NCBI GenBank assembly: GCA_029667085.1
Contig: JARUHJ010000001.1
Location: 744,001-808,000 of the forward strand
Direction: 5' to 3'
Origin: Deltaproteobacteria bacterium IMCC39524
Lineage (GTDB): Bacteria > Desulfobacterota > Desulfuromonadia > Desulfuromonadales > BM103
Length of the DNA stretch: 64,000 nt
Each line of letters starts with the position of its first letter. Within the stretch, counting starts at the first letter, position 1. Below the pieces are notes generated by a model. That model made no database searches, was not told the DNA's origin, and was given only the letters and a program-made list of their open reading frames with translations. Of the stretch, positions 33,550 to 63,565 are shown one piece after another. The position numbers and the translations under genes are program-made.

Positions 33550-33751
33550 CAATCCCTCCCCGGCAGCTTTATATGTAACAATCAACAGGATAACTACTTA
33601 AAGTATTATAGCGGATAGAATCAGAGATGCCTTCAACTATGATAAATCACCATAGGATCGCACCCTTTAAAGCTCGGCAAGTTTTTATGTGGAAACAATC
33701 AGCCAATCTTTATTATGATAAGAAATCACGTCAATCTTCCTCGAGGACTCT

Positions 33752-36375: not shown

Positions 36376-37002
36376 CTAGTGTAAGTTGGCCATTCCAGAT
36401 AAGTGGGCCGGTGCGGAAACGGCCAACTTAAGTCGGCTTGTTACACCGAACTTCTTAAAGAGATGATTACAATGTGACTTGACTGTCTGCTCACAGATAT
36501 ACAACTTGTTAGCGATTTCCTTGTTCGTTAAACCTTCACAGATGCATTCCAAAATCTCAACTTCTTTCTTCGTCAGCTGAACTTTCTGACTTACCTGCTT
36601 ACTACTAAAGACCTCTTTCAGTGTCTGGCGATCAATCCAAAGCTCCCCTTCGTTAAGCTTCTTTATGGCCTTTCTGAACAATCGGCTATCCGACTCTCTT
36701 GGTAAAAGACCACCAAGCCCCTCTGCAATCATCAATCGAAGATCACCACCGTCGAGAGAAATTTCTTTATCGTTTAGGAGTAGGACGCACTTTCTTTCTG
36801 TGCCAGGCAACAAATCTATAACTTTTTTGCAGTTTTCCAGGTCGGCCACGATGATATCTGGATGCATACCGATTAAGCTCTCAAGGCCACCGTTTTCGGT
36901 AGAAACTCCTAAAACGTTAATTTCGTCATCTTCTTCTAAAAGTTTGCAAATACCTTCAGCATATAAATGGACTTGACAACAGATAGCGACGCTTACTTCC
37001 AT
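36376..37002 (-). CDS. LuxR/NarL-type regulator with degenerate receiver
   Basis: The start at ATG 37002 (MEVSVAICCQVHLYAEGI) follows GGAGGAGGCT. The 208-residue protein has a receiver-like domain (1-120) and a C-terminal GerE/LuxR helix-turn-helix (LTKKEVEILECICEGLTNKEIANKLYICEQTVKSHCNHLFKKFGV). The usual acidic pair at the receiver N-terminus (DD) is replaced by Cys-Gln, though an aspartate (VADLENC) sits at the phosphorylation position. Unlike standard FixJ proteins it has many cysteines. Regulators of this shape (CsgD/VpsT-like) often control biofilm genes. Here it lies next to the c-di-GMP riboswitch module and may act on it or the beta-barrel gene. Confidence 0.8.
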   Translation of the reverse strand: MEVSVAICCQVHLYAEGICKLLEEDDEINVLGVSTENGGLESLIGMHPDIIVADLENCKKVIDLLPGTERKCVLLLNDKEISLDGGDLRLMIAEGLGGLLPRESDSRLFRKAIKKLNEGELWIDRQTLKEVFSSKQVSQKVQLTKKEVEILECICEGLTNKEIANKLYICEQTVKSHCNHLFKKFGVTSRLKLAVSAPAHLSGMANLH

Positions 37003-37446
37003 AGCCTCCTCCCATCTCCCACGTAACACCCACTCTCCTCAAAGCCTCAGGATGGGCTCCTTGAAACCTACTGACATGATTCCATTGTTAAAACCTATCA
37101 TCAAATATTATTGGCGCAAGCAAATGACGGCTAAATTAATGTTTTTGCGTTATTTTTTTTCGATTTCAGCTTTTCTCGGCCGACGTTTATGTATTTAAAA
37201 TCTCCTACAACGTTAGGATCAATGTGACGATAACGCGTTCCATAAAACTTTAGTTTTATGGCTGATCTTTTGTGTGTGGCTATTGTGCGTACTAAAGGTG
37301 ACAAATAAAACACACCTCAAGTTTGAGGAAAATTTCAGCCCTTGTTGAAGAAGAAAAACAACACCAGACCGAAAGTTTTTATTGGTTGAATAATTCCGGC
37401 AAGTTGAGCCTATCAAACCAATGAAAAACATACCCCAACTAAAGGC
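37003..37446. other. Intergenic region before the riboswitch promoter
   Basis: About 445 bp, AT-rich, without a convincing gene; open frames in it are short and lack ribosome-binding sites. It must contain the LuxR-type gene promoter and any upstream activating sites for the sigma-54-like promoter at 37447. No clear enhancer repeat was identified by eye. Confidence 0.5.
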
Positions 37447-39909: not shown

Positions 39910-41340
39910 ATGATTATAAAAACAATAACAACAAAAATGAAAAGAACCTTATTTTCAACCTTATCCATGAAACGCTACTTAATCACTTTCGCACTCGCAT
40001 TGAGTGTAGTCACATCAATGTCGGGACTTGCATATGCCCTTCCAGCATTCCCTGGCGCAGAAGGATTTGGATCAACCACTATAGGTGGACGGGGCGGTAG
40101 GGTTATCCATGTTACTAATCTCAATAATAGCGGGCCAGGGAGTTTCCGCGCAGCAGTTGAAGCTTCTGGTCCTCGAATCATTGTTTTTGATGTTGCTGGC
40201 TATATAGATATAACACGAGGGGATGAAATTGTAATTGACGAACCTTATATAACCATAGCAGGGCAAACAGCACCTGGTGATGGCATAACATTCAGAGGCG
40301 AATCCATAGCCATTAAGACACACGATGTTATCTTAAGGGGTGTTAGGATTCGTGCTGGGCTTGGGGCGAGTGACGTATTACATGTATTGCCTCGTAATAT
40401 TCCAGGTGCTGTAGAAGTTTATAACGTTATTATCGATCATTGTTCCTTGAGTTGGTCACCGGATGAAAACTTCGGTGTTTGGTATGATGCTCATGATATT
40501 ACCCTCCAAAGAAACATAATAAGCGAAGGTCTAGGTGGAACTGAGCAAACCCCCCAAGGGAAAGGTGCATTATTCGGTAGCGAGGATGCACCCGGTGGCT
40601 TACCTAGCAACATCTCCTTTCACCACAATCTTATGGCGCACAATGCCGATAGAAGTATTAGGACAAGCGTATATACAGAAGTTGAGATGATCAATAACCT
40701 CATTTATGGGTGGAACTATTGGGCAACCAGAGCCGGTGCAGCTATGAATATTATTGGCAACCACTATATAAAGTCTCCGGCAACAGGAGGTGGTGAGCCT
40801 GTACGTGTTAATGAAGCTGGCCCTAATACCATTTATGTTCTTAACAATATAGGCCCTGGTAGACCGACTAACACAGGTGATGAGTGGGATATTGCTAGGG
40901 CGAGTGAGAGTTCCGCACAAGCAAGTTCCCCGACATTCCCTTTATCGAACGTAACCATTAATAACGTTAAAGATGTCTATGATAATATTCTTGCAGATGT
41001 TGGTGTGACTGCCCCTGCACAGGATGATGTCGATATCAGAATTATCAATGATGTTATTAACAAAACTGGGACATGGGACATTGATAATCCAAATCAGGTT
41101 GGTGGCTATCCTACCTTAGATGCAGGAACGAACCCAAAGGACACCGATAATGATGGAATGCCGGATAGTTGGGAGATTGCTAGAGGACTAAATCCATCAA
41201 GCGCATCAGATGTAAATGGTGACGATGATGGGGATGGCTACACCAATATTGAGGAATATATAAATAGCTTTTATGCTACGCTTGGAGGTGACAGGCCGTC
41301 ACCACCCAGAAACCTCAAAATCACCAGTCTAAATCAATGA
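39910..41340 (+). CDS. Secreted pectate-lyase-like beta-helix protein
   Basis: The ATG at 39910 follows AAGGAGACTAGTA. The 476-residue protein has an N-terminal export signal (FALALSVVTSMSGLAYA) and then the pectate lyase-type right-handed beta-helix: FPGAEGFGSTTIGGRGGRVIHVTNLNNSGPGSFR, IAGQTAPGDGITFRG and IIDHCSLSWSPDENFGV. Near the C-terminus lies a calcium-binding repeat (DNDGMPDSWEIARGLNPSS..DDDGDGYTNIEEY). It may cleave uronic-acid-containing polysaccharide by beta-elimination, possibly trimming the matrix made by the nearby EPS cluster. Substrate is inferred only. It follows the riboswitch-controlled gene by 95 bp and could share its transcript. Confidence 0.87.
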   Translation: MIIKTITTKMKRTLFSTLSMKRYLITFALALSVVTSMSGLAYALPAFPGAEGFGSTTIGGRGGRVIHVTNLNNSGPGSFRAAVEASGPRIIVFDVAGYIDITRGDEIVIDEPYITIAGQTAPGDGITFRGESIAIKTHDVILRGVRIRAGLGASDVLHVLPRNIPGAVEVYNVIIDHCSLSWSPDENFGVWYDAHDITLQRNIISEGLGGTEQTPQGKGALFGSEDAPGGLPSNISFHHNLMAHNADRSIRTSVYTEVEMINNLIYGWNYWATRAGAAMNIIGNHYIKSPATGGGEPVRVNEAGPNTIYVLNNIGPGRPTNTGDEWDIARASESSAQASSPTFPLSNVTINNVKDVYDNILADVGVTAPAQDDVDIRIINDVINKTGTWDIDNPNQVGGYPTLDAGTNPKDTDNDGMPDSWEIARGLNPSSASDVNGDDDGDGYTNIEEYINSFYATLGGDRPSPPRNLKITSLNQ

Positions 41341-42047: not shown

Positions 42048-42860
42048 TCAGGCAAAGCGGTTGAGTTCCGTCATAAGGCCCTCGCACAGGGTTCTGACGG
42101 CGGGTGTAATCTCTGGATAAACGTTTTTTGAAATGGAGTCTGGGTGAATAAATCGATAAATGCTTGAATCGGGCCTCAGACCGGAAAATTCAAACAGATG
42201 GTTGAAGAACTCATTGGGTTTGGTTGCGATATCCTCATATTTGGTGAGAATGAGATTGGGAACAGAGTATAATTTCTGTTCGATGAATATCCTGTTACGC
42301 ACCCACCAGGCCAGGCACAAAAGATCAAATTCAGACAGGTGGGGGGAGTAGATCTCTCTCACGATTTCGGCGGACTCTGTTGATACGCCCTCCTGAAACC
42401 ATCCCCCCCCTGTCTGGCCAGTGCAGACGATCCTAATGGCGCGGGTCGCATGGGGAAACTTTTTAAGGGCGGAGTTTGCAACATCCCGATAATCCCTGTA
42501 TATCCATATAAAACATCCCTGGGGGAACCGGGCAATGAACTCCGTAGCCAGATGACTGTCGGCTATCGGCTTGAAACATACAAACGTAAACCGACTCTGT
42601 TGCACCAACTCTTCAACAACTTCGAAACTCCGAATTCGATGGTTTCGAAATGCCCGACTGTTGCGGTTTTCATCAAAGATCTCAATATCTCGATGAAGAT
42701 GAAATGCATTCATGAGCATGGTCGTGCCGGACCGTTGTCTTCCAAATACGAAAACAGGTATAGTTTCACGAGGCTGTCTCAACAGATAAATTGCTTTTTT
42801 ACTTGCTATTGAAAAATACTTGTTTCGTTTCTGTTTATCTAAAATCGCACTGATCTTCAT
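42048..42860 (-). CDS. Sulfotransferase family protein
   Basis: This 270-residue protein has the 5'-phosphosulfate-binding loop of PAPS sulfotransferases near the N-terminus (VFVFGRQRSGTTMLMNAF) and a 3'-phosphate-binding segment (IYRDYRDVANSALKKF). It would transfer sulfate from PAPS to a hydroxyl or amino group, here most likely on the polysaccharide. It is the last gene of the EPS cluster. It lies between two 45-bp direct repeats carrying an IS end, hinting that it arrived or can be lost with IS elements. Length is typical. Confidence 0.85.
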   Translation of the reverse strand: MKISAILDKQKRNKYFSIASKKAIYLLRQPRETIPVFVFGRQRSGTTMLMNAFHLHRDIEIFDENRNSRAFRNHRIRSFEVVEELVQQSRFTFVCFKPIADSHLATEFIARFPQGCFIWIYRDYRDVANSALKKFPHATRAIRIVCTGQTGGGWFQEGVSTESAEIVREIYSPHLSEFDLLCLAWWVRNRIFIEQKLYSVPNLILTKYEDIATKPNEFFNHLFEFSGLRPDSSIYRFIHPDSISKNVYPEITPAVRTLCEGLMTELNRFA

Positions 42861-48353: not shown

Positions 48354-49709
48354 TCATAATTTAGATATGGTATATCTATATTTACCACTAACCCTGTTCG
48401 TTTCAATTTTATCTAAATAATTAATTATTATACTAGAACTACTATCAAGGACTTCCAAACATTCTTTTATGATTTTTTTTTCGTTGTGCTTGTCAAATTC
48501 TGGCCCACAAACGAGATTAACACTAAAATATTCCAGGGATTCTTGAACAAACTGAAATGATTTAACTCCTTTCATTCCATAAAAAATATGTGTGAAATAT
48601 TCACCGTGTATAATTCTTCCTGTAGCAGTTTTAATTGAATCAGAGGATCTACCAACAATCTTATCAAGAAGATAACCTTGAATCCCACATTCACAGTGAC
48701 CCTCAGAAAACACACCCAAATCTCCTATTTCATACCGAATAATTGGCATGGCATAGTTGTTTAAAGATGTAACCAATATCCTACCTTCTTCATCAAAAAC
48801 CTGTCGATTCTGATCGTCAACAACCTCAACAATGTGATCATACATATGCAAATGCAGGCCATTCTTCTTTTGACACTCTGTGGCAATACAACCAACTTCT
48901 CGGCTCCCATATCTATTTAATACGTTAGCATTAAAAACACTTTCTATTTCATCTCGCATATGTGGAAATAAAATTTCTGCTGAACTGATAATTCCTCGTA
49001 ATCTAGTTTTAATATTTAAATTATTTTCTTTAATAAACTTAGCTAGAATATAAATAGATGAAGCGTATGCAATTATAACTTCGGGTTTTATTTTATTAAT
49101 CGTTTCAACCATTTCAGTCATTTCATTTTCACCCATATCAAATGAGTCAAGCCACGTTAAGTTCTTTAACCACATTCTAAATTGCGCCCGAGGTCCCTTA
49201 ATAAGGCTGAAATCTTTTGGGGCGCCCCATAAACGAACCTCCCTACACCCCTGGTACCATCCCTGCATCCGATCTGAAACAAACTTGGTTGCCCTACTCT
49301 GCATGTAGTAATTTTCATCTTGCCAAATGTTAACTGGAATCCCAGTAGACCCTCCACTAGAGTTCATGTAGACTCTCTTTGCTTTTGTATTTAAAAGAGA
49401 ATCAAACTTTTCTTGAATTTCACTTTTTTGCAAAATCGGGAAATTTGATATATATTTTTCGATATCAAAGTTTGTATTTTTAGGAATCCCGACTCGCTTT
49501 ATAATGTCACCGTAAACATCATTCTTTAGGTGAACCTCAAGAAGCTTTAATAAGTTTACTTTTTGCAATTCTAGAAGGCTGCATTTATCAATACCGTACA
49601 AGTATTTTTCTTTTTGTTGACTAATTTTCAATATATCAACATTACTTTTTTTAAATTTATTACGATAAAAAGGATAATATAATCTCTTAGAAACGCAATC
49701 CCTAACCAT
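48354..49709 (-). CDS. CapK/PaaK-like adenylate-forming enzyme
   Basis: This 451-residue protein resembles phenylacetate-CoA ligase/CapK, with MNSSGGSTGIPVNIWQDENYY (P-loop-like) and RYGSREVGCIATECQ (ANL family A5 region). Later come RILVTSLNNYAMPIIRYEIGDLG and VGRSSDSIKTATGRIIHGEYFTHIFYG. It would activate a carboxylic acid as an adenylate, and may transfer it to CoA or directly to an amine or hydroxyl. CapK-like proteins are frequent in capsule clusters and their substrates are mostly unknown. The gene is AT-rich. About 290 bp upstream of it hold no gene. Confidence 0.82.
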   Translation of the reverse strand: MVRDCVSKRLYYPFYRNKFKKSNVDILKISQQKEKYLYGIDKCSLLELQKVNLLKLLEVHLKNDVYGDIIKRVGIPKNTNFDIEKYISNFPILQKSEIQEKFDSLLNTKAKRVYMNSSGGSTGIPVNIWQDENYYMQSRATKFVSDRMQGWYQGCREVRLWGAPKDFSLIKGPRAQFRMWLKNLTWLDSFDMGENEMTEMVETINKIKPEVIIAYASSIYILAKFIKENNLNIKTRLRGIISSAEILFPHMRDEIESVFNANVLNRYGSREVGCIATECQKKNGLHLHMYDHIVEVVDDQNRQVFDEEGRILVTSLNNYAMPIIRYEIGDLGVFSEGHCECGIQGYLLDKIVGRSSDSIKTATGRIIHGEYFTHIFYGMKGVKSFQFVQESLEYFSVNLVCGPEFDKHNEKKIIKECLEVLDSSSSIIINYLDKIETNRVSGKYRYTISKL

Positions 49710-52637: not shown

Positions 52638-53837
52638 CTATAATGAATCATATGCAGTTATAAGACGTTTTTTTTGGTGTACCCAACTAAGTTGTTCTTC
52701 AACCCTTCGACTACCCACCTCCCCCATAGTTCTACATAATTCTGGATTATCTATAAGCTTTACTATTTTCTTCGCAAAATCTTCCTCATCATTCTTTTTG
52801 GCATAAAGGGCCGCACCTTGTGCTGAATACCTTCCTTCTGTTGTTTCAAACTGAACAATTGGTTTACCTAAGGCCATATATTCCATAATTTTAATCATTG
52901 TTGATTTATCATTCATTTCATTTACTGCATCTGGGTTTACACAAACATCTGCAGTATTCAGTATTTCTATCATTTCACTATCTGGAATGTAGCCCGTGAA
53001 AGTCACAAACTCAGCAACGTTAATTTCCTTAGCATAATTCTTTAGACAAGGAATCTCGTCGCCAGAACCTATCAAACAAAAATGGATATCAGTTCGCTCT
53101 AATCCATTAACGATATAGCTCACTACACGTAACAATCCATCAATCCCTTCTTGCTTACTCATGAGGCCTACATAACCCACTAGGAAATCACGACCATTTT
53201 TGAGTGCATGATTCGGGGCCATTGCCTTAATTCGCCCCGGGTCAGGCCCGTTTCTAACAATATGTATTTTCGAAAGGTCTACACCCCCACGCTCATGGGC
53301 TATTTTTTTATATGACTCATTTGTCGATATAACTATATCGCATGTCTTAAATGTGAATTTTTCAAACGCCAGCAGAAGCTTGTAGATATATCTCTTCTTT
53401 CCGAACTTCATCTCAAATAATTCAGGACTTATATCATGATGGTCAAAAACAAATTTAACGCCCAAAAGCTTAAAAGGGAGAGCAACTAAAAAGATATTGT
53501 CTGGTGGATTACTGGCGTGGATTACGTCAAATCCATTTTTGATGTACACATATATGGAGAAAAAAAACTCATAAAACAGGGAAATCCCATACTCACCTAA
53601 GTAACCAAACACTGAACGCCCTCGAAAAGGAAGCGGATGCCGAAATATATGGACTCCATGAAGAATCTCCTTCCCAGGTGTCTGATTGGCGGCTTGGTCA
53701 ACAGGGCATATAATCGAAACCAAAAACCCTAAATCCCTCAACGCACAGGCCTCCTGCCAAACACGCGGATCTTTTGGAATTACGGAATTTTGCAAAATTA
53801 TTAATACTTTTTTTGTGCTACCAGCAGATTCCTTCAT
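52638..53837 (-). CDS. Glycosyltransferase family 4
   Basis: This 399-residue GT-B protein has KKVLIILQNSVIPKDPRVWQEACALRDLGF, FKLLGVKFVFDHHDISPELF and GYVGLMSKQEGIDGLLRVVSYI. The donor site is NDKSTMIKIMEYMALGKPIVQFETTEGRYSA. Its start overlaps the AlgD-like gene by 20 bases. It may be the enzyme using GDP-mannuronate, since it is coupled with GDP-mannose dehydrogenase, but this is inference. Confidence 0.9.
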   Translation of the reverse strand: MKESAGSTKKVLIILQNSVIPKDPRVWQEACALRDLGFLVSIICPVDQAANQTPGKEILHGVHIFRHPLPFRGRSVFGYLGEYGISLFYEFFFSIYVYIKNGFDVIHASNPPDNIFLVALPFKLLGVKFVFDHHDISPELFEMKFGKKRYIYKLLLAFEKFTFKTCDIVISTNESYKKIAHERGGVDLSKIHIVRNGPDPGRIKAMAPNHALKNGRDFLVGYVGLMSKQEGIDGLLRVVSYIVNGLERTDIHFCLIGSGDEIPCLKNYAKEINVAEFVTFTGYIPDSEMIEILNTADVCVNPDAVNEMNDKSTMIKIMEYMALGKPIVQFETTEGRYSAQGAALYAKKNDEEDFAKKIVKLIDNPELCRTMGEVGSRRVEEQLSWVHQKKRLITAYDSL

Positions 53838-55131
53838 AAAGCTCTTCTCCCCTTAATTCTTCGTCAAGTCTGACAAGGTCAAAAATATTTTTTGTGTTAT
53901 TTATTTTAGACAAAGGCAAGAGATAATCATTTGAACTGCTACTTATTACGACAGTATCTCCGTGATTAATTACTTCTTCAATTGTATTAACCATCAAATT
54001 AGAAATATGTGGAATAGTATTCAAAATATAATCTTTATTTGCTCCAAATATTTTTGCCAAATTTACACATCTATCGTACAACCGCAAATCGTAGCCCTTG
54101 CCGATTAGATGCTCTACTATAGCTACGGTAGGACTTTCTCTCAAATCGTCAGTTTCATCTTTGAAACTTATGCCAAGAAAACCAACCTTCTTAGATCCAA
54201 GATCCTCTATTATATTTATTGCTCTGTTTATTTGAGATTTATTACTTGGCATAATCGAGTTAAGCAAAGGAAGTTCTATGTCAAGGGTCTTACCAAGGTA
54301 AACTAGAGCATTAAGATCCTTCGGAAGGCAAGACCCTCCGAAAGCAAAGCCTGGTTTAAGGTAAGCGGTTGAAATGTTCAGCTTCATATCTGAACAGAAA
54401 ATATCCATAAGGACATGACTGTCTATTCCATTGGCTTTGCTTATGGCACCAATTTCATTAGCAAAAGCAACTTTTAAAGCATGCCAAGAGTTATCTGCAT
54501 ACTTCACCATCTCCGCTGTCTGCATGTCTGTCATAAACAGAGGGGCATCGATACCTTTGTAGAGTTGAGCTAAACACTTGCCACTTTTTGAGTCATTTTG
54601 GCCTATAACAGTTTTGGGCGGATGGTTGTAGTCATGGACTGCGGTGCCCTCTCGCAAAAACTCTGGATTGTTACATACACCAAAATCTTCACCAGCTTTC
54701 TTTCCAGAATATTTTTCTAAAGTTGGGATTACTAATTCCTTCATTGTTCCTGGCAAGACAGTACTTCGTAGAACCACTACATGGTATTTTGACTTTGTTG
54801 ATAAAGATGATCCGATTTCTTCACAGACTCGACCTACAAACCCGATGTTCAAGCTTCCATTTTTTTTGCATGGAGTACCAACGCAAATTAATGATATGTC
54901 TGTCTCACTTATGGCCTTTTGCACATCTTCAGTCGCTTTCAAATTGCCCGAGGACTTCCCCCGTTTGATCAGGTCAGCCAATCCCGGTTCGATAATCGGG
55001 CTATGCCCACTTTCGATCATATCGATCTTTGTTTTCTGATTATCCACCCCAACGACATAATGCCCATCACTTGAAAGGCAACCAGCGGAAACCACACCAA
55101 CATACCCAAGACCAAAAATGCTAACTCTCAT
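53818..55131 (-). CDS. algD: GDP-mannose 6-dehydrogenase (AlgD-like)
   Basis: The start at 55131 (MRVSIFGLGYVGVVSAGCLS) gives 437 residues, nearly the length of Pseudomonas AlgD; an earlier frame adds a non-homologous stub. The NAD motif GLGYVG, VCNNPEFLREGTAVHDY, the active-site cysteine C268 in GGSCLPKD, SFKDETDDLRESP and the terminal EGICW all match AlgD more closely than UDP-glucose dehydrogenases. It oxidises GDP-mannose to GDP-mannuronate in two steps with NAD. Hence the polymer probably contains mannuronic acid. No alginate-type synthase is seen, so it feeds a Wzy-type polymer. Confidence 0.88.
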   Translation of the reverse strand: MRVSIFGLGYVGVVSAGCLSSDGHYVVGVDNQKTKIDMIESGHSPIIEPGLADLIKRGKSSGNLKATEDVQKAISETDISLICVGTPCKKNGSLNIGFVGRVCEEIGSSLSTKSKYHVVVLRSTVLPGTMKELVIPTLEKYSGKKAGEDFGVCNNPEFLREGTAVHDYNHPPKTVIGQNDSKSGKCLAQLYKGIDAPLFMTDMQTAEMVKYADNSWHALKVAFANEIGAISKANGIDSHVLMDIFCSDMKLNISTAYLKPGFAFGGSCLPKDLNALVYLGKTLDIELPLLNSIMPSNKSQINRAINIIEDLGSKKVGFLGISFKDETDDLRESPTVAIVEHLIGKGYDLRLYDRCVNLAKIFGANKDYILNTIPHISNLMVNTIEEVINHGDTVVISSSSNDYLLPLSKINNTKNIFDLVRLDEELRGEELYEGICW

Positions 55132-55208
55132 GTCATGTCCTCTCAGAATACGTTTAGCCATTACAACCAATGGATAGTTGCTTTCTTAAAGTAGGGGAAT
55201 GCGAACCT

Positions 55209-55868
55209 TTATCTCTCACCATTAGCTATTTCGTGACATTCCTTGCTTCTTGCCATCTCATAAGTCGCATATCTTTTAATTAAATAAGCCGAAAGCTCCT
55301 CATACCCAAGCAGTCTATGAACCCAAAGAGCAGGTGTATTGTCTTTTAAAAAATACCCGTAAGCCTTTTTAATTCCACGCTCCTTTAGCTCACCCAAGAC
55401 AAGGCTCATAAATGTAGTCGCTGTAGCCCGACCTCTTTTGTCTTGTGCTAAATAAAGATCAAACATATAGACTTCATCAGGCATGAGATCTATTTGGAAT
55501 AAATTTAGATCTTTATGTTTTGCCGTTGTCGATGATCCATCTACATACCAGACATCTGCCAAGACAAAGTCTTGATCTAGCAGGGCGTAGGATTTAATTC
55601 CTTTTTTTAAGTTATAATTAGCCTTTTGCCCCCTGCTTTTCAGTGGATAATGCAATCGTAGCGATTTTATTGTTTCTAGTGATATTTCTACTAACCTTAA
55701 GCTGTCTCCAAGGTCGAATGATTTCAAATCCTTCAAGGTTGACAGATCTTTGCACACCGGAATCGCTTCCTTGTTCTCATAAAGGCACGCTTTCAACGTT
55801 GGCCAAAGACCATTACTTTTACTTAGTTCAGCGATTTGATTCGACCTGATCCGTAATTTTTCGATCAT
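55209..55868 (-). CDS. GNAT family N-acyltransferase
   Basis: This 219-residue protein has the GNAT fold C-terminally: VYMFDLYLAQDKRGRATATTFMSLVLGELKERGIKKAYGYFLKDNTPALWVHRLLGYEEL. The acyl-CoA/pantetheine loop is DKRGRATATT. The N-terminal 90 residues are of unknown fold. Its first 41 bases overlap the amidohydrolase gene. It probably transfers an acyl group to an amine of an amino sugar; the donor could be acetyl-CoA or the carrier-protein-bound acyl made by the neighbouring ligase/ACP/dehydrogenase enzymes. This is inferred from position. Confidence 0.82.
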   Translation of the reverse strand: MIEKLRIRSNQIAELSKSNGLWPTLKACLYENKEAIPVCKDLSTLKDLKSFDLGDSLRLVEISLETIKSLRLHYPLKSRGQKANYNLKKGIKSYALLDQDFVLADVWYVDGSSTTAKHKDLNLFQIDLMPDEVYMFDLYLAQDKRGRATATTFMSLVLGELKERGIKKAYGYFLKDNTPALWVHRLLGYEELSAYLIKRYATYEMARSKECHEIANGER

Positions 55869-56937
55869 TTTTATTCTCCCCTGGAAAAAGTTTGAGGGGG
55901 TTGCTGCTTGCGACCTTGATTAGTGAGTCCTCGGGATTAATGACTGATTGTTGTAAGGCGCACCACATCTTAAGCATTTCTATCCACTGCTTCTCATAAA
56001 GGGTGTCGGACCCAAAACAAATCCTGTCGGTATTGATGTTCTTGAAGACAAGCGAAAGCAAATCGACCTCTAGTGCGGAGGTATCGACGACAAGGTTTTC
56101 GTAATGGGACAATAGCCTATTCAGGGAGGGAAGAACGTCTCGACTGACTTCTGCCGGGCTATGTCCATAGGAGCCTGCGTGTGCAATGACAACAGTCTCA
56201 GAAGTTATTGACCAGTCAATGTGTTGAAGATTACTGACTGCACCGTACGCGACGGCGTGAGCATCCTTACAATCCAGGCTCAGGCCGCCATGAATGATAA
56301 CTTTCAAGCTTTCCTCTTTTGCTGCGGCAAGGATACTCTCTATTCTGTCTTTCCCTTCTGTTCTTGACGGGTTAATACCCTGCAAACTCGGATGAATTTT
56401 CAAGACCTCCACATTGTATTCGTTGACGACCCGCTTGATTTTTCCAGAAATTTCGTTGACTGAAATATCGTTGGGGACACAATAGCCAAGCAAAAATCTG
56501 TCATCGCCACCAAACATATCGGACAGCAGACGCAACTGTTGGTCGCCATATTCGTCTTTCGCCATGACTGGAAGAAGGACGACCTTGTCGACTCCGGACA
56601 ATTTCATCTGATCGCAAAACACCTTAGGTCCGTTATGCGCGTAGATTCGCCTTCTGTTCAGCTGCAACATCTTGTTTAATATTTTTTTATCGTGGTAGTC
56701 GCCGACTAGCTTTTCTTTTTTCTTTAGATCTAAATCGGATATTTCCGGCATGACATATTCTGCTGCCACAGAGCTATATAACCCGTAACAAGTCGACGAG
56801 CGGACATAGTTGATTGCTCCATCCATAACTTCGAATGGATGAACATGGACATCATAAAAAGTATAGGAACCCTTGATATCCCTGATTAAGTCCAATGCAT
56901 ACTCAACATTTTTTCTGTCCATATTAATTCCAGCCAT
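55828..56937 (-). CDS. TIM-barrel amidohydrolase in the carrier-protein module
   Basis: The ATG at 56937 or 56922 starts the homologous part; the open frame to 56967 uses a TTG. The protein of about 369 residues is an amidohydrolase-2 fold metal hydrolase: DVHVHPFE gives the first HxH, VIIHGGLS and VVIAHAGSYGHSP supply further metal-ligand histidines, and RICFGSDTLY the catalytic aspartate. Such enzymes hydrolyse, decarboxylate or lactonise small substrates. Placed between the adenylation enzyme and GNAT genes it likely processes the unusual acyl precursor, or the amino acid before activation. Reaction unknown. Confidence 0.8.
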   Translation of the reverse strand: MAGINMDRKNVEYALDLIRDIKGSYTFYDVHVHPFEVMDGAINYVRSSTCYGLYSSVAAEYVMPEISDLDLKKKEKLVGDYHDKKILNKMLQLNRRRIYAHNGPKVFCDQMKLSGVDKVVLLPVMAKDEYGDQQLRLLSDMFGGDDRFLLGYCVPNDISVNEISGKIKRVVNEYNVEVLKIHPSLQGINPSRTEGKDRIESILAAAKEESLKVIIHGGLSLDCKDAHAVAYGAVSNLQHIDWSITSETVVIAHAGSYGHSPAEVSRDVLPSLNRLLSHYENLVVDTSALEVDLLSLVFKNINTDRICFGSDTLYEKQWIEMLKMWCALQQSVINPEDSLIKVASSNPLKLFPGENKNDRKITDQVESNR

Positions 56938-56979
56938 ATTGTTCTGCGGGGCTAGTTGTAACAACAAATCGCACGGAAA

Positions 56980-58563
56980 CTAAGAATCAATGTGCATGTT
57001 CAAGTCGTCATATTTTATTTTCCCACGGTTGCAGCGCGGGATCCTATCCAGCTGAATAAATCGCTTTGGGATCATATAAACAGGTAAATAATTTTTTAAT
57101 CGATTGAGTTCCCTCAAGTCAGTCGAAGGGCCTGAAGCCTCGACGAATGCAATGATCCCCGTTGCTCCCTCGTAAAGTTTTGATTGATGCAGAATCACCG
57201 CTGCGTCGCTAATCCCGTCCAGGGACAAAATTGCATGTTCGACCTCACCTGCCTCTATGCGATATCCCATAAACTTCAACTGTCTGTCTTTCCTGCCGAT
57301 GAATTGATAATTGCCGCAAGGCAACAAAACAGCAAGATCTCCGGTTTTGTAAATTCTTTCGTTTGCTCCAATAGCGTCATTGAAAACGAAAACTGCGTCC
57401 GTCTTTACCTGGTCATTCAGATACCCCTTCGATAAACCCAGACCGGCAAGACACAATTCGCCAACCTCTCCGATATTGACCGGAGTATTATCTTCCGCGA
57501 GAAGAGTGACATATGTCCCTTCACAAGGGATTCCGATCGGTATTTTTTCTTGTGGATTTTTCGGCACCTGCTCCACTCGATAGCATAAGGAAATGCCGGT
57601 TGCCTCTGTTGGTCCATAGCCGTTGTAAAAAATTTTCTCCGGGTACTCGTTCATCCACTTCAATAAATATTTCGTGGGGAAAGGCTCGCCGGCAAATATG
57701 ATTTGCTTCAAGCTGCGCATACGGTTTTTTCCAATGACATTCGCCTTGGCCATATACAGGAGCAACGACGAAACACCTTTCCAGAGAGTGATTTCTTCTT
57801 TTTCAACAAAATCAACGAGTTTCTTTGGGAATAGTGTAGATTCTTCACTCGCAATACAAAGGGTGCCTCCGGCTTTCAACGAACAGTAGATGTCAAAAGT
57901 CGACATGTCGAAATGAAATGGCGCGGTCCCTAAAATCCTATCCTTTTCATTAATTTGAAAGTAATTGACTGCCCAATTTATATAGTTACTGATATTTTGA
58001 TGCGAAATCATCACACCCTTCGGCTTACCTGTTGAACCGGAGGTGTAAAGGATGTAGGCAATATCCGACTCATTATTGTGATAACTCGGTTGATGATCTC
58101 TATATTTTCCGGTCCGGCTATTGATCGAATCCCATCCAAAACCAGCCCCATCAAGATTGCATTCGGGATCAAGCTGCAAAATTGGCGTCACAGACCCTAG
58201 TTTATCTATTAGCTGCACAGTTTCGCTTCTGTTCCGGCTATCGCATACCACCGCTGTCGGCGAGCAGTCAGCCAGAATATCTTGCCAGCGATCAAGCGGG
58301 GCTTTACAGTCGATCGGTACGTATATGGCATCAGCTTTAAGGATCCCTAAAATAACAACCAGAACTTCGACCGACCGATTTAGACAAAAGGCAACGCGGT
58401 CTTGCCTTTTAACTCCGCAAGCGATCAATCCATTTGCGAGTCGGTTCGAATACAGTTCCAGATCACGATAACTGAGAGTCGTCCTCCCATCAGTTACGGC
58501 GACATTTGACTGTTTCTCGCATGTCGCAAGATCAAGATATTGCTGAACAAGTAGTGTCTTCAA
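56980..58563 (-). CDS. Amino-acid adenylation enzyme (DltA-like, stand-alone)
   Basis: This 527-residue ANL-family protein begins at a TTG (58563), eight bases after AGGA, just behind the dehydrogenase stop; no in-frame ATG is available before the conserved part. It has all adenylation motifs: YILYTSGSTGKPKGV (A3), YNGYGPTEATG (A5), GELCLAGLGLSKGYL, RIYKTGDLA (A7), GRKDRQLKFMGYRIEAGEVE (A8) and the C-terminal lysine in NRGKIKYD (A10). The A4 motif FDMSTFD keeps the aspartate that binds the amino group of amino acids. By hand the selectivity positions read about D-M-F-K-I-A-G-G-I-K, not a code I recognise. It likely loads an amino acid onto the ACP. Confidence 0.87.
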   Translation of the reverse strand: MKTLLVQQYLDLATCEKQSNVAVTDGRTTLSYRDLELYSNRLANGLIACGVKRQDRVAFCLNRSVEVLVVILGILKADAIYVPIDCKAPLDRWQDILADCSPTAVVCDSRNRSETVQLIDKLGSVTPILQLDPECNLDGAGFGWDSINSRTGKYRDHQPSYHNNESDIAYILYTSGSTGKPKGVMISHQNISNYINWAVNYFQINEKDRILGTAPFHFDMSTFDIYCSLKAGGTLCIASEESTLFPKKLVDFVEKEEITLWKGVSSLLLYMAKANVIGKNRMRSLKQIIFAGEPFPTKYLLKWMNEYPEKIFYNGYGPTEATGISLCYRVEQVPKNPQEKIPIGIPCEGTYVTLLAEDNTPVNIGEVGELCLAGLGLSKGYLNDQVKTDAVFVFNDAIGANERIYKTGDLAVLLPCGNYQFIGRKDRQLKFMGYRIEAGEVEHAILSLDGISDAAVILHQSKLYEGATGIIAFVEASGPSTDLRELNRLKNYLPVYMIPKRFIQLDRIPRCNRGKIKYDDLNMHIDS

Positions 58564-58565
58564 CG

Positions 58566-59711
58566 CTACAATCCTAAGAATTTAGAAATAATGTTCTGTT
58601 GGATTTCTGATGTCCCTGAATAAATTGTAGATGCAATGCTATCTCGCAGATCTCTTTCTACCTCATATTCTTTAATGTATCCGTATCCACCGTGTATTTG
58701 AACTGCATCCAAGCTTGCTTGCTTCAAACTTTCACTTATGAAAAGTTTACATATAGATGACTCAAGAGTTGCTCTCTTTTCTTTATCTTTTAATACAGAA
58801 CAGCTCCAAAGAATTCTTTTTCCAAGTTCAACATTAACCTTCATACGGCTTAATTTGTTTGAGATTGACTGATAACTTCCTATTGTATTTCCGAAGGCTT
58901 TGCGTTCTTTTGCATATTTTACTGATGTTTCAAGTATTCGCTCCATTGTCCCCAGATGTGCAGCCGGAAGCAGACTTCTCTCCCACTCCATAGATTCATT
59001 GAAGATGATCCCTCCCTGGCCTTCTTTGCCAAGAATGTTTGCACTGGGTACCATGCAGTTATCGAAAAACAACTCACCATTCTGTAAAGTGGTCAGCCCC
59101 ATTTTCTCCAGAGGCTTACCTTTTACAAAGCCCTCTAAACCTTCATCAACGATAAAGCAGGAAACCCGACCAAGTGACTTTCTCTCCGGATCGGTAACGG
59201 CGAAGACAATGGCCACATTGGCCAAGGGACCATTGGTGATAAAAGTCTTACTGCCATTCAGGAGATAGTTCCCCCTTTCCCTCACAGCCCTGGTCCGCAT
59301 TGATAGAGCATCCGAACCTGTATCAGGCTCGGTTATTGCCTGGGCAAAAACCTTTTCACCACGGCAAAGAGCTGGTAGATACCTGGTCTTCAACTCGTCA
59401 CTGCCAAAAAGATGGATCTGCAAACCGCACAATAGCTGTGTGGCGATAGCATGAACCAACCCCGCATCTTTACATGCGTACCCAAATGCCTTCAGGAACA
59501 GGGTTGTGGTAAGAAGATCCACCCCGCACCCTCCGTATTTTTCTGGGATCGGCACAGCCATAAAATTCATTTCTGCACACTTTTTCCATGCCTCCCAGGG
59601 AAACTCGCCACTTTTTTCATAGCAGTCGATGCTATATGTGAGCTCCTGCCGACAAAAATTGACGACGGTATCTGTTAAGATTTTCTGCTCATCAGTCAAT
59701 TGAAGATCCAT
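58566..59711 (-). CDS. Acyl-CoA dehydrogenase-like flavoprotein, prolyl-carrier-dehydrogenase type
   Basis: The start at 59711 (MDLQLTDEQKILTDTVVNFC) gives 381 residues with normal FAD motifs (AQAITEPDTGSDALSMRTRA, FITNGPLANVAIVFAV). The usual catalytic glutamate of short-chain enzymes in IYEGTSEIQ is replaced (IYSGTSEIQ). Instead there is E244 in the SMEWERSLL segment. That is the catalytic position used by isovaleryl-CoA dehydrogenase and by PltE/RedW-type dehydrogenases that oxidise prolyl-carrier proteins to pyrrole. It likely oxidises an aminoacyl group on the adjacent ACP. It lies between ACP and adenylation genes with one- to two-base gaps. Confidence 0.87.
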   Translation of the reverse strand: MDLQLTDEQKILTDTVVNFCRQELTYSIDCYEKSGEFPWEAWKKCAEMNFMAVPIPEKYGGCGVDLLTTTLFLKAFGYACKDAGLVHAIATQLLCGLQIHLFGSDELKTRYLPALCRGEKVFAQAITEPDTGSDALSMRTRAVRERGNYLLNGSKTFITNGPLANVAIVFAVTDPERKSLGRVSCFIVDEGLEGFVKGKPLEKMGLTTLQNGELFFDNCMVPSANILGKEGQGGIIFNESMEWERSLLPAAHLGTMERILETSVKYAKERKAFGNTIGSYQSISNKLSRMKVNVELGKRILWSCSVLKDKEKRATLESSICKLFISESLKQASLDAVQIHGGYGYIKEYEVERDLRDSIASTIYSGTSEIQQNIISKFLGL

Positions 59712-59712
59712 G

Positions 59713-59973
59713 TCAGGCCTCTGGCTGACCGGCACACTTTTGTGCGATCAATGCGGAAATGGAGGCAATTGATTCAAAATTTTCCGGAAGTAAATCGTCT
59801 GCTGAGACCTGAACAGAGAATTTATCCTCCAGGAACCCCAGCAAAGACATGATTCCAAATGAATCAACAATACCAGTTTCAAGAAGCAGATCGGTGTCAG
59901 ACAAATGAGTACCATCAGTGTCAACAATTAACTCCGAGGTGATAAAAGAACGAATAATATCTCTGGTCGTCAT
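59713..59973 (-). CDS. Stand-alone acyl carrier protein
   Basis: The start at 59973 (MTTRDIIRSFITSELIVDTD) follows AGGAGGAC; the longer frame to 59997 is unneeded. The 86-residue, acidic, helical protein has ETGIVDSFGIMSLLGFLEDKF with the serine for 4'-phosphopantetheine (DSFG). It resembles DltC-like or peptidyl carrier proteins. It would hold the amino acid activated by the neighbouring adenylation enzyme while the dehydrogenase acts on it. Tight packing with both genes supports this. No phosphopantetheinyl transferase is seen in the window. Confidence 0.9.
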   Translation of the reverse strand: MTTRDIIRSFITSELIVDTDGTHLSDTDLLLETGIVDSFGIMSLLGFLEDKFSVQVSADDLLPENFESIASISALIAQKCAGQPEA

Positions 59974-60013
59974 CTCAGTCCTCCTCTCCTTACTCAAGAG
60001 CCCTTAATCAGAA

Positions 60014-60922
60014 TTAGAATGTCGACCTCAAATATTTGGTCAAATCTTTAGGCAGCGCCATCCAATACTGACCCCGATAACACTCAATGAGATGTTTTAA
60101 AAAATCAGAATAGAAGCTGGAAGGATAGAATTCGGCTTTTCTCGGGCAATTATGAAAGGCAAGATAGTCAGGATGTACATTCAAAACCACAGCCCCACCA
60201 TTGCAAGCAACCCAAGCGAGCTTTTCTTTCCAAAGGTCAATTGTCTTATGTTTAAGAAGAATAAAGAGACAGAAATCTTGCGGAAGCGTGTAAGGAATCT
60301 CCAAGTATTTTTGCCCTGATGGCCCATTCACCCAAAAAGGGAAAATAGTGTTAGTGCCGTCTGAGTACGGTTCAAACGGATCGGTATCAAAAGTTGAAGA
60401 ATCATATTCAATGTTCAGTTCGTGTAACCATTCCAGATTATGATGCATAGAAGGCGACCTAAACCCAACCGCGCCCCACTCTTTTAAATAATGATTGATC
60501 TTGGCTGCTCGCTCTAAAAATATGCGCCTGGAATTATATAACTTGCCATCATGATTCAACCCATGCACGCCTATCTCAAACCCGTTCTCCATCAGGTCCT
60601 CAAAGATTTCAGCAGAAACGTCATAACGTTCTGGGACAAAATTAAAACTCGATCTAAATCCTAGTCTTTGCTCTAGATCTTTCAGCTTGATACAGTTTTC
60701 CTGGCCAGTAGCAGTATCAACATCGTGGGTCAAAACCAGAGCAAAGCTCTTTCCTTCAGGCCACCCAGGCCAGCCATCAGGCTTCTTTCCGCTTGTTGGG
60801 TCAATCGGCCAGCGGTCCAAGACTCTCTTAAGCTGCAGTTCAGCAACAAATTGTCGCATCGAAATCTGCACCGACCTGGGAATTGCCGGTTTCATATAGT
60901 AATAGAGTCTGTTACCCAACAT
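60014..60922 (-). CDS. Polysaccharide deacetylase-like (NodB fold) protein
   Basis: ATG 60922 (MLGNRLYYYMKPAIPRSVQI) is chosen; a GTG at 60940 is an alternative. The protein of about 302 residues has the NodB-homology metal site: LTHDVDTATGQ with the catalytic and metal aspartates, EIGVHGLNHDG with the metal histidines, and VGFRSPSMHHN. NVHPDYLAFH near the C-terminus carries the final histidine. It would remove acetyl groups from an N-acetylated sugar or precursor, possibly freeing an amine for the acyl group made nearby. Its start overlaps the FemAB-like gene. Lack of a signal peptide suggests a cytoplasmic or membrane-associated role. Confidence 0.85.
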   Translation of the reverse strand: MLGNRLYYYMKPAIPRSVQISMRQFVAELQLKRVLDRWPIDPTSGKKPDGWPGWPEGKSFALVLTHDVDTATGQENCIKLKDLEQRLGFRSSFNFVPERYDVSAEIFEDLMENGFEIGVHGLNHDGKLYNSRRIFLERAAKINHYLKEWGAVGFRSPSMHHNLEWLHELNIEYDSSTFDTDPFEPYSDGTNTIFPFWVNGPSGQKYLEIPYTLPQDFCLFILLKHKTIDLWKEKLAWVACNGGAVVLNVHPDYLAFHNCPRKAEFYPSSFYSDFLKHLIECYRGQYWMALPKDLTKYLRSTF

Positions 60923-61946
60923 GTCTGTAGAGTACCCCACCTAGAAAGTTTGAAACTGTCACAGGAGCGGCCTTAAAAAAGCCTGTACTGAGTGATCCTG
61001 GCCCCTTCTCTTTCACGACGAACTTATTATCTTTGATCTTGTATCTGTAGTAACTGATTGATTTTTGTTCTGGAGCCCAGCCGTTTTTATATCTCACCAA
61101 TCCAGCATTATTTTTTTCCGTTCTTCCCAAGCTAAGACTTGTATAGTTTCTTTTAGATAACCATTTTATTGCTTCCCACATCACCAAGTTGTTGGCTCTC
61201 AAATAGCCTTCTTCTTTTTTTGACGCCCCGTATTTGTAAATTGCACTTTTCCCGAAAAGGAAATAAATTGATCCGGCAACAACCTCTCCACGCTTTTTAG
61301 CAGTCACAATGATGCCTTTTCCATCGCTGATTACATACTTATATAGGTTTTCAAAGAATCTATATGGCTGTGATGGAATGCCATGCCTCTTCCTGGTAAT
61401 AGAATTCAAGTGGTAGAATTCATCGACTGATTCCATATCATGGCGAATCTCAATTTCTACACCCTCCCTAATTGCCTTTTTTATATTCCTTCTATTGTTG
61501 TTACTAAATTGAGAAAACATTTGATCAGCGTCTTCCATTAGCCGAATATCATGCTGATAAAAACTATCGTAAACGCTTCCTATCGCCTGGTCACCGACAT
61601 CTCCGCGCAAATCGATGTGCTGCCAATGGGACTTTTTTGCATGTTCAATCAACTCTTGCCAAAGTTGTTGCAGCTCCTCTGGTCTTGATACAATGGGCCG
61701 AACGTAGTCAGTAAAGGGTAACGACACACCACGTCGTCCGGTGAAAAGGCTCTTTATTTCCATTATTGGCAGCAGAAAGCACAACTTATCTTCAGCAAAA
61801 ATCGAAAAGTATCGTGGCTCATAGCCATAGGTATCGCTCAGCAACTTAGCCCAAGATTGGGAGTGAAAAAAAGTTGCGTCCTGATGGCAGGAGATAAGGC
61901 TATCCCAATTTTCGATATTCAATGGATTAAGAACCTTGTAGCTCAT
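60912..61946 (-). CDS. FemAB/GNAT-like (peptidyl- or acyl-transfer) protein
   Basis: The start at 61946 (MSYKVLNPLNIENWDSLISC) gives 344 residues. It resembles the FemAB-related GNAT double-fold proteins of EPS clusters: FFHSQSWAKLLSDTYGYEPRYFSI at the start, NNRRNIKKAIREGVEIEI in the middle, and then KRGEVVAGSIYFLFGKSAIYKYGAS. Family members transfer aminoacyl or acyl groups, from aminoacyl-tRNA in Fem proteins. Here it might move the carrier-bound aminoacyl onto an amino sugar. That is only a hypothesis from family and location. Confidence 0.82.
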   Translation of the reverse strand: MSYKVLNPLNIENWDSLISCHQDATFFHSQSWAKLLSDTYGYEPRYFSIFAEDKLCFLLPIMEIKSLFTGRRGVSLPFTDYVRPIVSRPEELQQLWQELIEHAKKSHWQHIDLRGDVGDQAIGSVYDSFYQHDIRLMEDADQMFSQFSNNNRRNIKKAIREGVEIEIRHDMESVDEFYHLNSITRKRHGIPSQPYRFFENLYKYVISDGKGIIVTAKKRGEVVAGSIYFLFGKSAIYKYGASKKEEGYLRANNLVMWEAIKWLSKRNYTSLSLGRTEKNNAGLVRYKNGWAPEQKSISYYRYKIKDNKFVVKEKGPGSLSTGFFKAAPVTVSNFLGGVLYRHVG

Positions 61947-61970
61947 GCTAGAACACTCCATCGTATCTCA

Positions 61971-63071
61971 TTAAAAAGTTTCCCTAACATGATGTGATAC
62001 ATACTCTATCTGTTCCACGCTCAATTCTGGGCACATAGGCAGAGAAACGAATTCTTTTGCACAACTTTCCGCAACAGGATAACTCCCCTGAGCACAGCCT
62101 AACCCCGCGTAAGCTCTTTGCGTATGAACAGGATTTGGATAATGAATCCCACATGAAATATCCTTGCTCGTTAGAGATGCCATAAACTCAGTTCGGTTTG
62201 GGACTCGGACAGAATAAATATGATAAACGTGTTTATTGTGCACTTTTGAACTTGGCACCCTCAGCTCTTTAATATCAGACAAAAAACTGTTGTAGTGGCT
62301 GGCGTTGTCTCTGCGAGATTGATTCCACCCTGCCAGTCGCTTTAGTTTCACACTTAAAACGGCTGCCTGGATTCCATCCATACGGCCATTCCAACCGATA
62401 ACACTGTGGTCATACTTTTTACTCTGACCATGATCACGTAAGAGATGAATCATCTGAGCAACTTTTGGGTTATTTGTCGTCACTGCACCAGCCTCACCAA
62501 AGGCGCCAAGATTCTTGCCAGGATAAAAGCTGAAACAGCCCGCATCCCCAATTGAGCCAGCAGTCCGCTGCTTATATTCAGCGCCATGTGCCTGACAAGC
62601 ATCCTCCACAACAAAAAGCCCATATTCCTTTGCGATGGTCATAATGGAGTCCATATCAGCCATCTGTCCAAATATGTGCACAGGAACAATTGCTTTGGTC
62701 TTGGGAGTGATGGCGGCTTCAATTAACTCCGGATTGATCGTGTAGCTATGATCATCAATGTCAACGAATACTGGTTTAGCACCGCAAAAACTGATCGCTT
62801 CAGCCGTTGCGATAAAAGTATTGGGGGCTGTAATGACTTCGTCACCTTCACCTATTCCGAGTGCCATCAGGGCCATCCATAAAGCCTCGGTACCACTCCC
62901 CACGCCGACGGCATAATCACACTGGGTGAATGCAGCAAACTGCTTCTCAAAAGTTTCTACAAACGGGCCACCGGAAAAAGCACAGCTTGCAATAACCTCA
63001 TTAATCGATGTTTGAATTTCATCATTTATGGAAGCGTGCAGAGCCTTGAGGTCCATAAAAGGGACTTTCAT
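61971..63071 (-). CDS. DegT/DnrJ/EryC1 sugar aminotransferase (WbpE-like)
   Basis: This 366-residue PLP enzyme begins MKVPFMDLKALHASINDEIQ after GGGAGGAG. It shows GVGSGTEALWMALMALGIGEGDEVITAPNTFIAT, VVEDACQAHGAEYKQRTAG and SFYPGKNLGAFGEAGAV with the Schiff-base K186. It transfers an amino group from glutamate to a keto sugar nucleotide. With the adjacent WbpB-like oxidoreductase and WbpD-like acetyltransferase it fits the C3-amination step toward UDP-2,3-diacetamido-2,3-dideoxy-glucuronic acid. Sequence similarity alone does not exclude other sugars such as Qui4N. Confidence 0.9.
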   Translation of the reverse strand: MKVPFMDLKALHASINDEIQTSINEVIASCAFSGGPFVETFEKQFAAFTQCDYAVGVGSGTEALWMALMALGIGEGDEVITAPNTFIATAEAISFCGAKPVFVDIDDHSYTINPELIEAAITPKTKAIVPVHIFGQMADMDSIMTIAKEYGLFVVEDACQAHGAEYKQRTAGSIGDAGCFSFYPGKNLGAFGEAGAVTTNNPKVAQMIHLLRDHGQSKKYDHSVIGWNGRMDGIQAAVLSVKLKRLAGWNQSRRDNASHYNSFLSDIKELRVPSSKVHNKHVYHIYSVRVPNRTEFMASLTSKDISCGIHYPNPVHTQRAYAGLGCAQGSYPVAESCAKEFVSLPMCPELSVEQIEYVSHHVRETF

Positions 63072-63081
63072 AGTCTCCTCC

Positions 63082-63546
63082 CTATTGTTGTTTCATAACT
63101 CTGGCAGGATTGCCGGCGACAACGGAATTAGCTGCGACATCTTTGGTAACGACGCTACCAGCGCCAACAATTGCGTTCTCACCTACGGTGACACCACACA
63201 ATAAAGTCGCACTGGAACCAATAGACGCGCCCTGTTTAATCAGTGTTGGGACACAGGCCCAATCGTCCTCAGTCTGTAGTTCTCCATCTTCTGAAGTAGA
63301 ACGCGGATACCTATCATTGATGAAGGTTACGTTATGACCAACAAAGACCCCGGCCTCTATAGTAACTCCTTCACAAATGAATGTATGGCTGGAGATCTTA
63401 CAGTTATTGCCGATAACAGCCCCTTTCTGGATTTCGACAAAGGTTCCTATTTTCGAGTTATCGCCAATTGTACAGCCGTACAAATTGACAAAATCGTAGA
63501 TTTTCACATCAACTCCAAGTTGAACGTCAGGAGCAATATTTTTCAT
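63082..63546 (-). CDS. Left-handed beta-helix N-acetyltransferase (WbpD/WlbB-like)
   Basis: Starting at 63546 (MKNIAPDVQLGVDVKIYDFV) after GGAGG, this 154-residue hexapeptide-repeat protein has repeats such as CTIGDNSKIGTFVEIQKGAV, GHNVTFINDRYPRS and ATLLCGVTVGENAIVGAGSVV. It resembles WbpD/WlbB, which acetylates the C3 amine of UDP-GlcNAc3NA using acetyl-CoA. The NDRYPRS segment is typical of that branch. The genes on both sides are the aminotransferase and Gfo/Idh enzymes of the same pathway. Confidence 0.88.
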   Translation of the reverse strand: MKNIAPDVQLGVDVKIYDFVNLYGCTIGDNSKIGTFVEIQKGAVIGNNCKISSHTFICEGVTIEAGVFVGHNVTFINDRYPRSTSEDGELQTEDDWACVPTLIKQGASIGSSATLLCGVTVGENAIVGAGSVVTKDVAANSVVAGNPARVMKQQ

Positions 63547-63565
63547 GGACCAAGCCTCCAATGAG

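Follow-up and report, generated by a model that had tools for sequence, protein, structure and literature searches.

In thiotemplated pyrrole formation (the Pig, Plt, Red and Bmp systems and AnaB), a stand-alone adenylation (A) enzyme and a carrier work together with an acyl-CoA dehydrogenase-like protein (ACAD) possessing a catalytic Glu. In the D-alanylation of teichoic acids, DltA and DltC, a stand-alone A enzyme and a carrier, decorate a cell-surface polymer; AlmE/AlmF/AlmG add glycine to Vibrio lipid A, applying the logic of A enzyme, carrier and transferase to a surface glycolipid. Glutaryl-CoA dehydrogenase is an ACAD that desaturates a dicarboxylic acyl thioester, which is followed by glutaconyl decarboxylation. 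Here we describe a five-gene cassette located in a 64,000-nt stretch of the genome of Deltaproteobacteria bacterium IMCC39524 (the window, to which all coordinates refer unless another locus is named), which encodes an acyl carrier protein (ACP), an ACAD, an A enzyme, an amidohydrolase and a GNAT-fold protein. In the reading that we favour, at a probability of roughly 45%, this Desulfuromonadales-type cassette would load an acidic amino acid onto the ACP, oxidise and process it there, and pass the product to polysaccharide assembly.

The cassette shares the stand-alone A enzyme, the carrier and the ACAD with catalytic Glu with the pyrrole systems, whose ACADs form its sister clade, but differs from them in a non-proline pocket with K278, in the amidohydrolase and the GNAT, in its polysaccharide setting, and in electron transfer flavoprotein (ETF) partners. 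Membership in the Dlt families was rejected, the A enzyme scoring 286.8 of 476 and 278 of 559.85 bits for DltA and the ACP 24.3 of 68 and 21.9 of 52.35 bits for DltC; in addition, the cassette has a dehydrogenase and an amidohydrolase, and no DltB-type MBOAT was present in the operon, the one MBOAT match of the genome (C1:165710-166300) lying about 633 kb away. AlmEFG differs by having no known oxidation step and by another acceptor and transferase family, and the glutaryl-CoA route by acting on acyl-CoA instead of aminoacyl-ACP and by a different decarboxylase. As to XrtA/PEP-CTERM exopolysaccharide (EPS) loci, genes for an exosortase and a DUF3485 protein lie close to the cassette in two relatives, as judged by Pfam for L106 and by clustering for L108, whereas no exosortase match was found in the genome of the window; a link to exosortase as a general feature of the cassette was thus rejected, as was membership of the A enzyme in TIGR03098, the XrtA EPS acyl-CoA ligase (222.6 of 592.35 bits).

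The cassette occupies nt 55209-59997 on the minus strand and consists of the following genes, in order of reading:
59713-59997, minus strand: ACP, stand-alone acyl/peptidyl carrier protein (ATG at 59973; phosphopantetheine Ser in GIVDSFG)
58566-59735, minus strand: ACAD-like, predicted aminoacyl-carrier-protein dehydrogenase (frame overlaps that of the ACP; catalytic Glu in WER)
56980-58563, minus strand: A enzyme, stand-alone amino-acid adenylation (TTG start 2 bases past the ACAD)
55828-56967, minus strand: Amidohydro_2 metal-dependent enzyme, predicted decarboxylase or hydratase (12-base gap after the A enzyme)
55209-55868, minus strand: GNAT-fold acyltransferase, predicted ACP-to-amine acyl transfer (overlaps the amidohydrolase gene)

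All five genes were overlapping or separated by no more than 12 bases. Pfam matches were obtained for the ACP, ACAD, AMP-binding and Amidohydro_2 domains, that of the ACP with PF00550 being just above the cut-off (21.9 versus 20.8 bits), and the DS motif of the ACP was kept across the family alignment. The open reading frames (ORFs), Pfam matches and fold thus confirmed the preliminary description of the window, made from its letters, which had listed five packed, same-strand genes for these proteins with a TTG start for the A enzyme. A contig scan with the ACAD as query kept 80 loci, in 12 of which (L005-L016, ACAD identity 59-73%) ACP, ACAD and A enzyme occurred together. When the neighbourhoods of 18 distinct loci, including some from genome searches, were compared by profiles, ACP, ACAD and A enzyme stood together in all 17 loci not cut there, and the amidohydrolase followed the A enzyme in 15/15 loci whose contig extends that far. 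The GNAT was present in 12 of the 14 loci with enough flank, after the amidohydrolase in nine of these 12 and upstream of the ACP in the other three (L005, L006 and L106). Since the set recurs as a unit in other loci, it is a real conserved unit and not a chance assembly.

In a survey of 136 genomes of the order, counting the A enzyme to E 1e-100 and the amidohydrolase to E 1e-50, each was found in 14 genomes and both in 13; of the 15 genomes with either, the two exceptions (G512 and G509) have the gene at contig ends. Within its own genus the cassette was found in 2/11 genomes, several of the others being incomplete, and a phylum-wide search for the A enzyme, with 3 candidates scored per genome, returned 1/395 genomes, that of the window itself. 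This patchy distribution suits a variable surface locus. In L005:11119-13864, from a metagenome-assembled genome (MAG), an in-frame stop interrupts the A frame and the amidohydrolase is split over two frames; a stop was flagged in G470, too. A cassette ACAD with 66% identity to that of the window was found on L008, a 4.9-kb contig filed under an Ignavibacteria MAG, where mis-binning or transfer may have placed it.

In the ACAD of the window, YSGT replaces the usual EGT, and the Glu of WER is E252 of the 389-residue ORF, or E244 counted from the ATG. Glu occupied the WER column in 23/23 cassette rows (duplicates included) and in 17/17 rows of related ACADs designated here as WER-type, the EGT Glu was lost in all 23 and all 17, and Ser stood at the YSGT column in 23/23 cassette rows. 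The motif change highlighted earlier as a mark of prolyl oxidation is therefore real, but it is not exclusive to the prolyl type: two of 55 generic ACADs (L025 and L026) carry both changes as well, so that the motif by itself is not enough to assign the type. In one report, the WER Glu is called essential in AnaB and Bmp3 and is the proposed base taking the C2 hydrogen of prolyl thioesters (PMC11177257). A tree was built from 55 ACAD sequences, 16 from cassettes, 17 WER-type and 22 generic, the last chosen from the 55 aligned generic rows, which were all drawn from the query's own matches. The 16 cassette rows formed one clade (100/100) with the 17 WER-type rows as sister (98/83), and both together split from the 22 generic ACADs at 100/100. 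The phylogeny that had been proposed as a check on the dehydrogenase thus places it with the prolyl type and not among ordinary acyl-CoA dehydrogenases. The best PDB match, 4irn, a prolyl-ACP dehydrogenase (AnaB), scored 347.7 bits, compared with 289.1 for a generic ACAD and 254.2 for 5zw0 (PigA); an ordinary fatty acyl-CoA dehydrogenase was ruled out by the tree and this ranking.

The ACAD remained under the cut-offs of the curated prolyl-dehydrogenase families, with 368.4 of 500 bits for PigA (NF053553) and 325.3 of 650 for RedW (NF045652), while a Pseudoalteromonas control reached 690.4 bits on NF053553. This PigA-passing sequence falls in the WER-type clade, with the cassette ACADs outside as its sister clade. 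Five other WER-type proteins were likewise under both cut-offs; the label covers 17 rows, of which six were scored and one (L104) passes that of PigA. Four residues, H95, Q100, Q106 and Q132, were found in 17/17 cassette rows, whereas the WER-type ACADs differ at these columns in 17, 15, 17 and 17 of 17 rows, respectively. The protein thus is, judged by sequence, of the prolyl-carrier-protein type without being a member of a named family. A second ACAD outside the cassette (32404-33585) is nearest to acryloyl-CoA reductase (NF042972, 519.2 bits, cut-off 640).

The A enzyme passed the amino-acid adenylation model TIGR01733 (381.3 bits, cut-off 317.4) and keeps D235, which, together with the separation of the ACAD from the 22 generic ones, makes it extremely improbable that a fatty acyl-ACP is dehydrogenated and the polymer decorated with an unsaturated fatty acid, even if the ACAD and ACP folds by themselves would permit this. 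Its best single-domain PDB match was an L-proline ligase (6o6e, PigI). The pocket code in the window is DMFKIAGGIK, with residue 262 as the equivalent of K278. D235, M236, F239, K278, G330 and K517 were invariant in 14/14 distinct full-length A enzymes, a count made without L005/L086, L007, L008 and L012, where the A gene is truncated or divided, and the code DMFK(L/I)(A/G)xGxK was read in all 14, versus DLLYLALVC in 6o6e (nine positions covered). Among sister-group A enzymes, those beside WER-type ACADs, the pocket could be read in 12 out of 17 rows: K278 occurred in none, eight were proline-like (DLFYLAL or DLLYLAL, as in 6o6e), three had DIFY and one DIFF, with the outgroup columns 330/331 shifting by one between the two A-enzyme alignments. 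In a published list of codes, K at code position 4 is found in 14/14 acidic entries (13 methyl-Glu and one Asp, with four different codes) and in 0/46 others (Table 7 of PMC9113097). By sequence, K278 suggests that the substrate is acidic (or of the Asn type), and the ACAD appears to have changed in step with the A pocket, which we interpret as a shift of the system towards an acidic substrate.

These data bear directly on the pathway originally suggested, in which L-proline would be loaded, oxidised to pyrrole-2-carboxyl-ACP by the logic of PltF/PltE/PltL, and attached to the polymer. The sister position of the ACAD to the WER-type clade holding PigA, the catalytic Glu that it keeps, and the proline ligase as best structural match of the A enzyme would agree with it. 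Nevertheless, as the pocket is unlike proline codes in every one of the 14 distinct A enzymes (K278 for Y, G330 and M236), proline was discarded as first choice; the ACAD stays below the thresholds for PigA and RedW, and pyrrole formation is not known to require an amidohydrolase, all of which makes this pathway improbable. From the idea of an oxidised aminoacyl group, oxidation on the carrier thus stands as very likely, given the clade of the ACAD, and the proline or pyrrole part is unsupported.

The amidohydrolase matched PF04909 with 40.4 bits (cut-off 26.4). H41, H43, K190, H192, H226, H263 and D321 were invariant in 11/11 family members, and H41, H43, H226, H263 and D321 may correspond to the metal-ligand pattern (HxH, His, His, Asp) of the ACMSD/LigJ branch. 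The AlphaFold2 model (predicted local distance difference test score, pLDDT, 86.2) was placed by Foldseek nearest to decarboxylases: the upper rows include ACMSD, IDCase, 5-carboxyvanillate decarboxylase and a decarboxylase that depends on zinc (LigW among these PDB entries), and the hydratase LigJ is at rank 13. The model therefore predicts a decarboxylase or a hydratase, though the enzyme may instead hydrolyse the thioester. ACMSD removes a carboxylate next to an enamine, which is what a dehydroaspartyl thioester offers; oxidation of Asp followed by decarboxylation, or a vinylogous reaction of Glu, would thus be the most economical proposal.

An ETF-alpha homologue was found beside the cassette in 9 of the 16 loci with upstream sequence and ETF-beta in 8, and in 4 loci it adjoins a gene for a large iron-sulfur (FeS) protein that has distant similarity to subunits of the fumarate-reductase and GlpC type. 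These ETF and FeS assignments are below NCBIfam cut-offs with one member per cluster scanned, and a single genus code accounts for L013, L014 and L112, three of the nine loci with ETF. The ETF neighbours support a true dehydrogenation, with an electron route that may lead via ETF to quinones. They also argue against a scheme in which the ACAD-fold protein would act otherwise, as a reductase or N-oxygenase, and the acidic aminoacyl group would be attached in its ordinary, unoxidised form. ACAD-fold proteins with other chemistry do exist, ChmG being one, but ChmG has lost the catalytic Glu (PMC11177257), and the cassette family keeps it. This scheme is therefore given little credence.

The following genes border the cassette, the first being downstream and the others upstream of it:
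53818-55170, minus strand: nucleotide-sugar dehydrogenase (TIGR03026, 406.7 bits, cut-off 189.8)
60014-60940, minus strand: NodB-like polysaccharide deacetylase, which could free an acceptor amine (TIGR03006, 21.3 bits, cut-off 276.2; no Pfam match)
60912-61961, minus strand: FemAB-like protein, candidate second acyl/aminoacyl transferase (TIGR03019, 136.7, cut-off 260.35; PF02388 and PF13480 above cut-off)
61971-63071, minus strand: DegT/DnrJ/EryC1 nucleotide-sugar aminotransferase, amino-sugar synthesis (PF01041, 414.3 bits)
63082-63561, minus strand: hexapeptide-repeat acyltransferase, with a WbpD-like role suggested by its position (PF00132, 85.5 bits)

The NodB-like and FemAB-like genes had been noted upstream of the cassette before and were found there, the former with the weak TIGR03006 match given above. 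A Gfo/Idh gene lies upstream as well and, on the same strand beyond the window, genes for a sugar transferase, an AAA protein, Wzz, a Wza-type export protein and an Exo_endo_phos protein; downstream are four glycosyltransferases, a Wzy_C protein and a flippase-type protein. The flippase, Wzy-like, Wzz and Wza neighbours define the setting as a Wzx/Wzy-type polysaccharide cluster, and the position of the cassette within an exopolysaccharide cluster, as originally proposed, is borne out here and in the loci of relatives. Polysaccharide genes, assigned largely by cluster membership, were found in 13 of the 14 loci longer than 9 kb, the window included, the exception being L014, a 9.7-kb contig on which none were seen. 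This distribution speaks against the cassette making a free or lipid-linked small molecule in a polysaccharide locus by chance or co-regulation. On the other hand, other ACP-ACAD-A sets sit in natural-product-type clusters, and in L110 (2802-5381, genome G513) the gene directly after the cassette GNAT encodes an adenylation-thiolation-thioesterase protein, which perhaps adds a second amino acid; on balance such a product is unlikely.

Other genes were recorded in or around these clusters. In the window, a sulfotransferase-family gene (42048-42860) lies at the far end of the cluster, and the polymer may be sulfated. A PaaK/F390-synthetase-like AMP ligase (48354-49709; below NCBIfam cut-offs, no Pfam match) is within the cluster, and two further short AMP-binding matches were located at G000:C1:816886 and 818696. 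At the border of the cluster are genes for a PelZ-like pectate lyase (39910-41340) and for a regulator of the LuxR/NarL type (36376-37029), neither of which reached its NCBIfam cut-off. Near the cassette of L013 (3649-5953) are a pyridoxal-phosphate decarboxylase of the ornithine/diaminopimelate type and a PylC-like ATP-grasp protein, with clusters common to L015 and L112. On a plasmid of Roseovarius pelagicus (L103:5739-9916), an ACP, a WER-type ACAD, a methyltransferase and an A enzyme (DIFFIGSNMK) adjoin YjbH/YjbF genes, which may be a second case of aminoacyl oxidation on a carrier being tied to a locus of the polysaccharide type.

The GNAT-like protein had no Pfam or NCBIfam match, and was recognised as a GNAT fold by AlphaFold2 (pLDDT 84.5) and Foldseek, with template modelling (TM) scores of about 0.5-0.6 by query length and 8-16% identity in the top rows; its profile gave only weak matches to the PDB (best E 0.0053). 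An RG and an N-x-PA-x-W-x-HR motif were invariant in the family. The transfer is the weakest step of the scheme. An amino sugar as acceptor is plausible from the neighbouring aminotransferases, deacetylases and FemAB-like proteins, a NodB-like homologue adjoining the cassette also in L007 and L011.

Taken together, the favoured pathway would proceed in four steps. The stand-alone A enzyme would activate an alpha-amino acid that is acidic, of the Asp or Glu type, and load the ACP with it. The WER Glu of the ACAD would then take the alpha hydrogen and a hydride would pass to flavin adenine dinucleotide, yielding an alpha,beta-dehydroaminoacyl-ACP, with electrons leaving by ETF to the quinone pool. 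The amidohydrolase would take this unsaturated, acidic acyl group as its substrate and most likely decarboxylate it, which in the case of Asp would give a dehydroalanyl or 2-iminopropionyl group, or else hydrate it. Finally, the GNAT would move the product, before polymerisation, from the ACP to the amine of a sugar supplied by the neighbouring aminotransferase or freed by the deacetylase. Loading and oxidation are well supported by the sequences, and from the genes and their context we infer the substrate, the third step and the acceptor. Accordingly more tentative, and in itself doubtful, is the proposal that the surface polysaccharide bears a substituent derived from an acidic amino acid that, while bound to the carrier, is oxidatively decarboxylated or hydrated in a process driven by ETF and the quinone pool; it may be a dehydroalanyl/iminopropionyl group from Asp or a vinylglycyl-type group from Glu.

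Several observations weigh against this pathway. The acidic substrate hangs on one residue, K278, the full code matches none of the entries compared, and Asn pockets carry K278 too. The acidic codes of Table 7 come from one antibiotic group and many were assigned by homology (PMC9113097). In the A-enzyme tree, the cassette clade (100/99) stood beside general nonribosomal peptide synthetase domains with support of no more than 92/86, and rows of the proline type did not come out as a single group. The ACAD scored nearly the same for acryloyl-CoA reductase (318.3) as for RedW (325.3). For the amidohydrolase, template modelling (TM) scores by query length were mostly 0.43-0.56, hydrolases, an isomerase and dihydroorotase were lower among the best 50 Foldseek rows, and no PDB sequence was matched by its profile at E 0.01. 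The copy in the window has no adjoining ETF genes, the only ETF pair of the genome being about 334 kb away. The GNAT was absent from L009 and L108 despite sufficient flank; another GNAT and a membrane acyltransferase adjoin the cassette in L108, and no replacement was identified among the neighbours in L009. Lastly, aminotransferases are common in polysaccharide clusters generally.

No description of this gene set was found in the open-access literature searched, which was one open-access collection. The parts are known, and the combination, carrier-bound oxidation of an amino acid joined to a surface decoration like that of Dlt and Alm, seems new, with a substrate that has probably changed relative to the known systems. 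If this is true, the template-bound oxidation of pyrrole pigments and antibiotics would have a second use in Desulfuromonadales-type bacteria, the decoration of their sugar coats, for which the substrate and probably also the electron acceptor would have changed. Their extracellular polymers would be predicted to carry a new group that is reactive or alters the charge, and the cassette would be a test case for reading A-enzyme pockets, here K278, outside peptide synthetases. Assembly-line oxidation of amino acids would thus serve the building of a cell-surface glycan and not of an antibiotic or a pigment.

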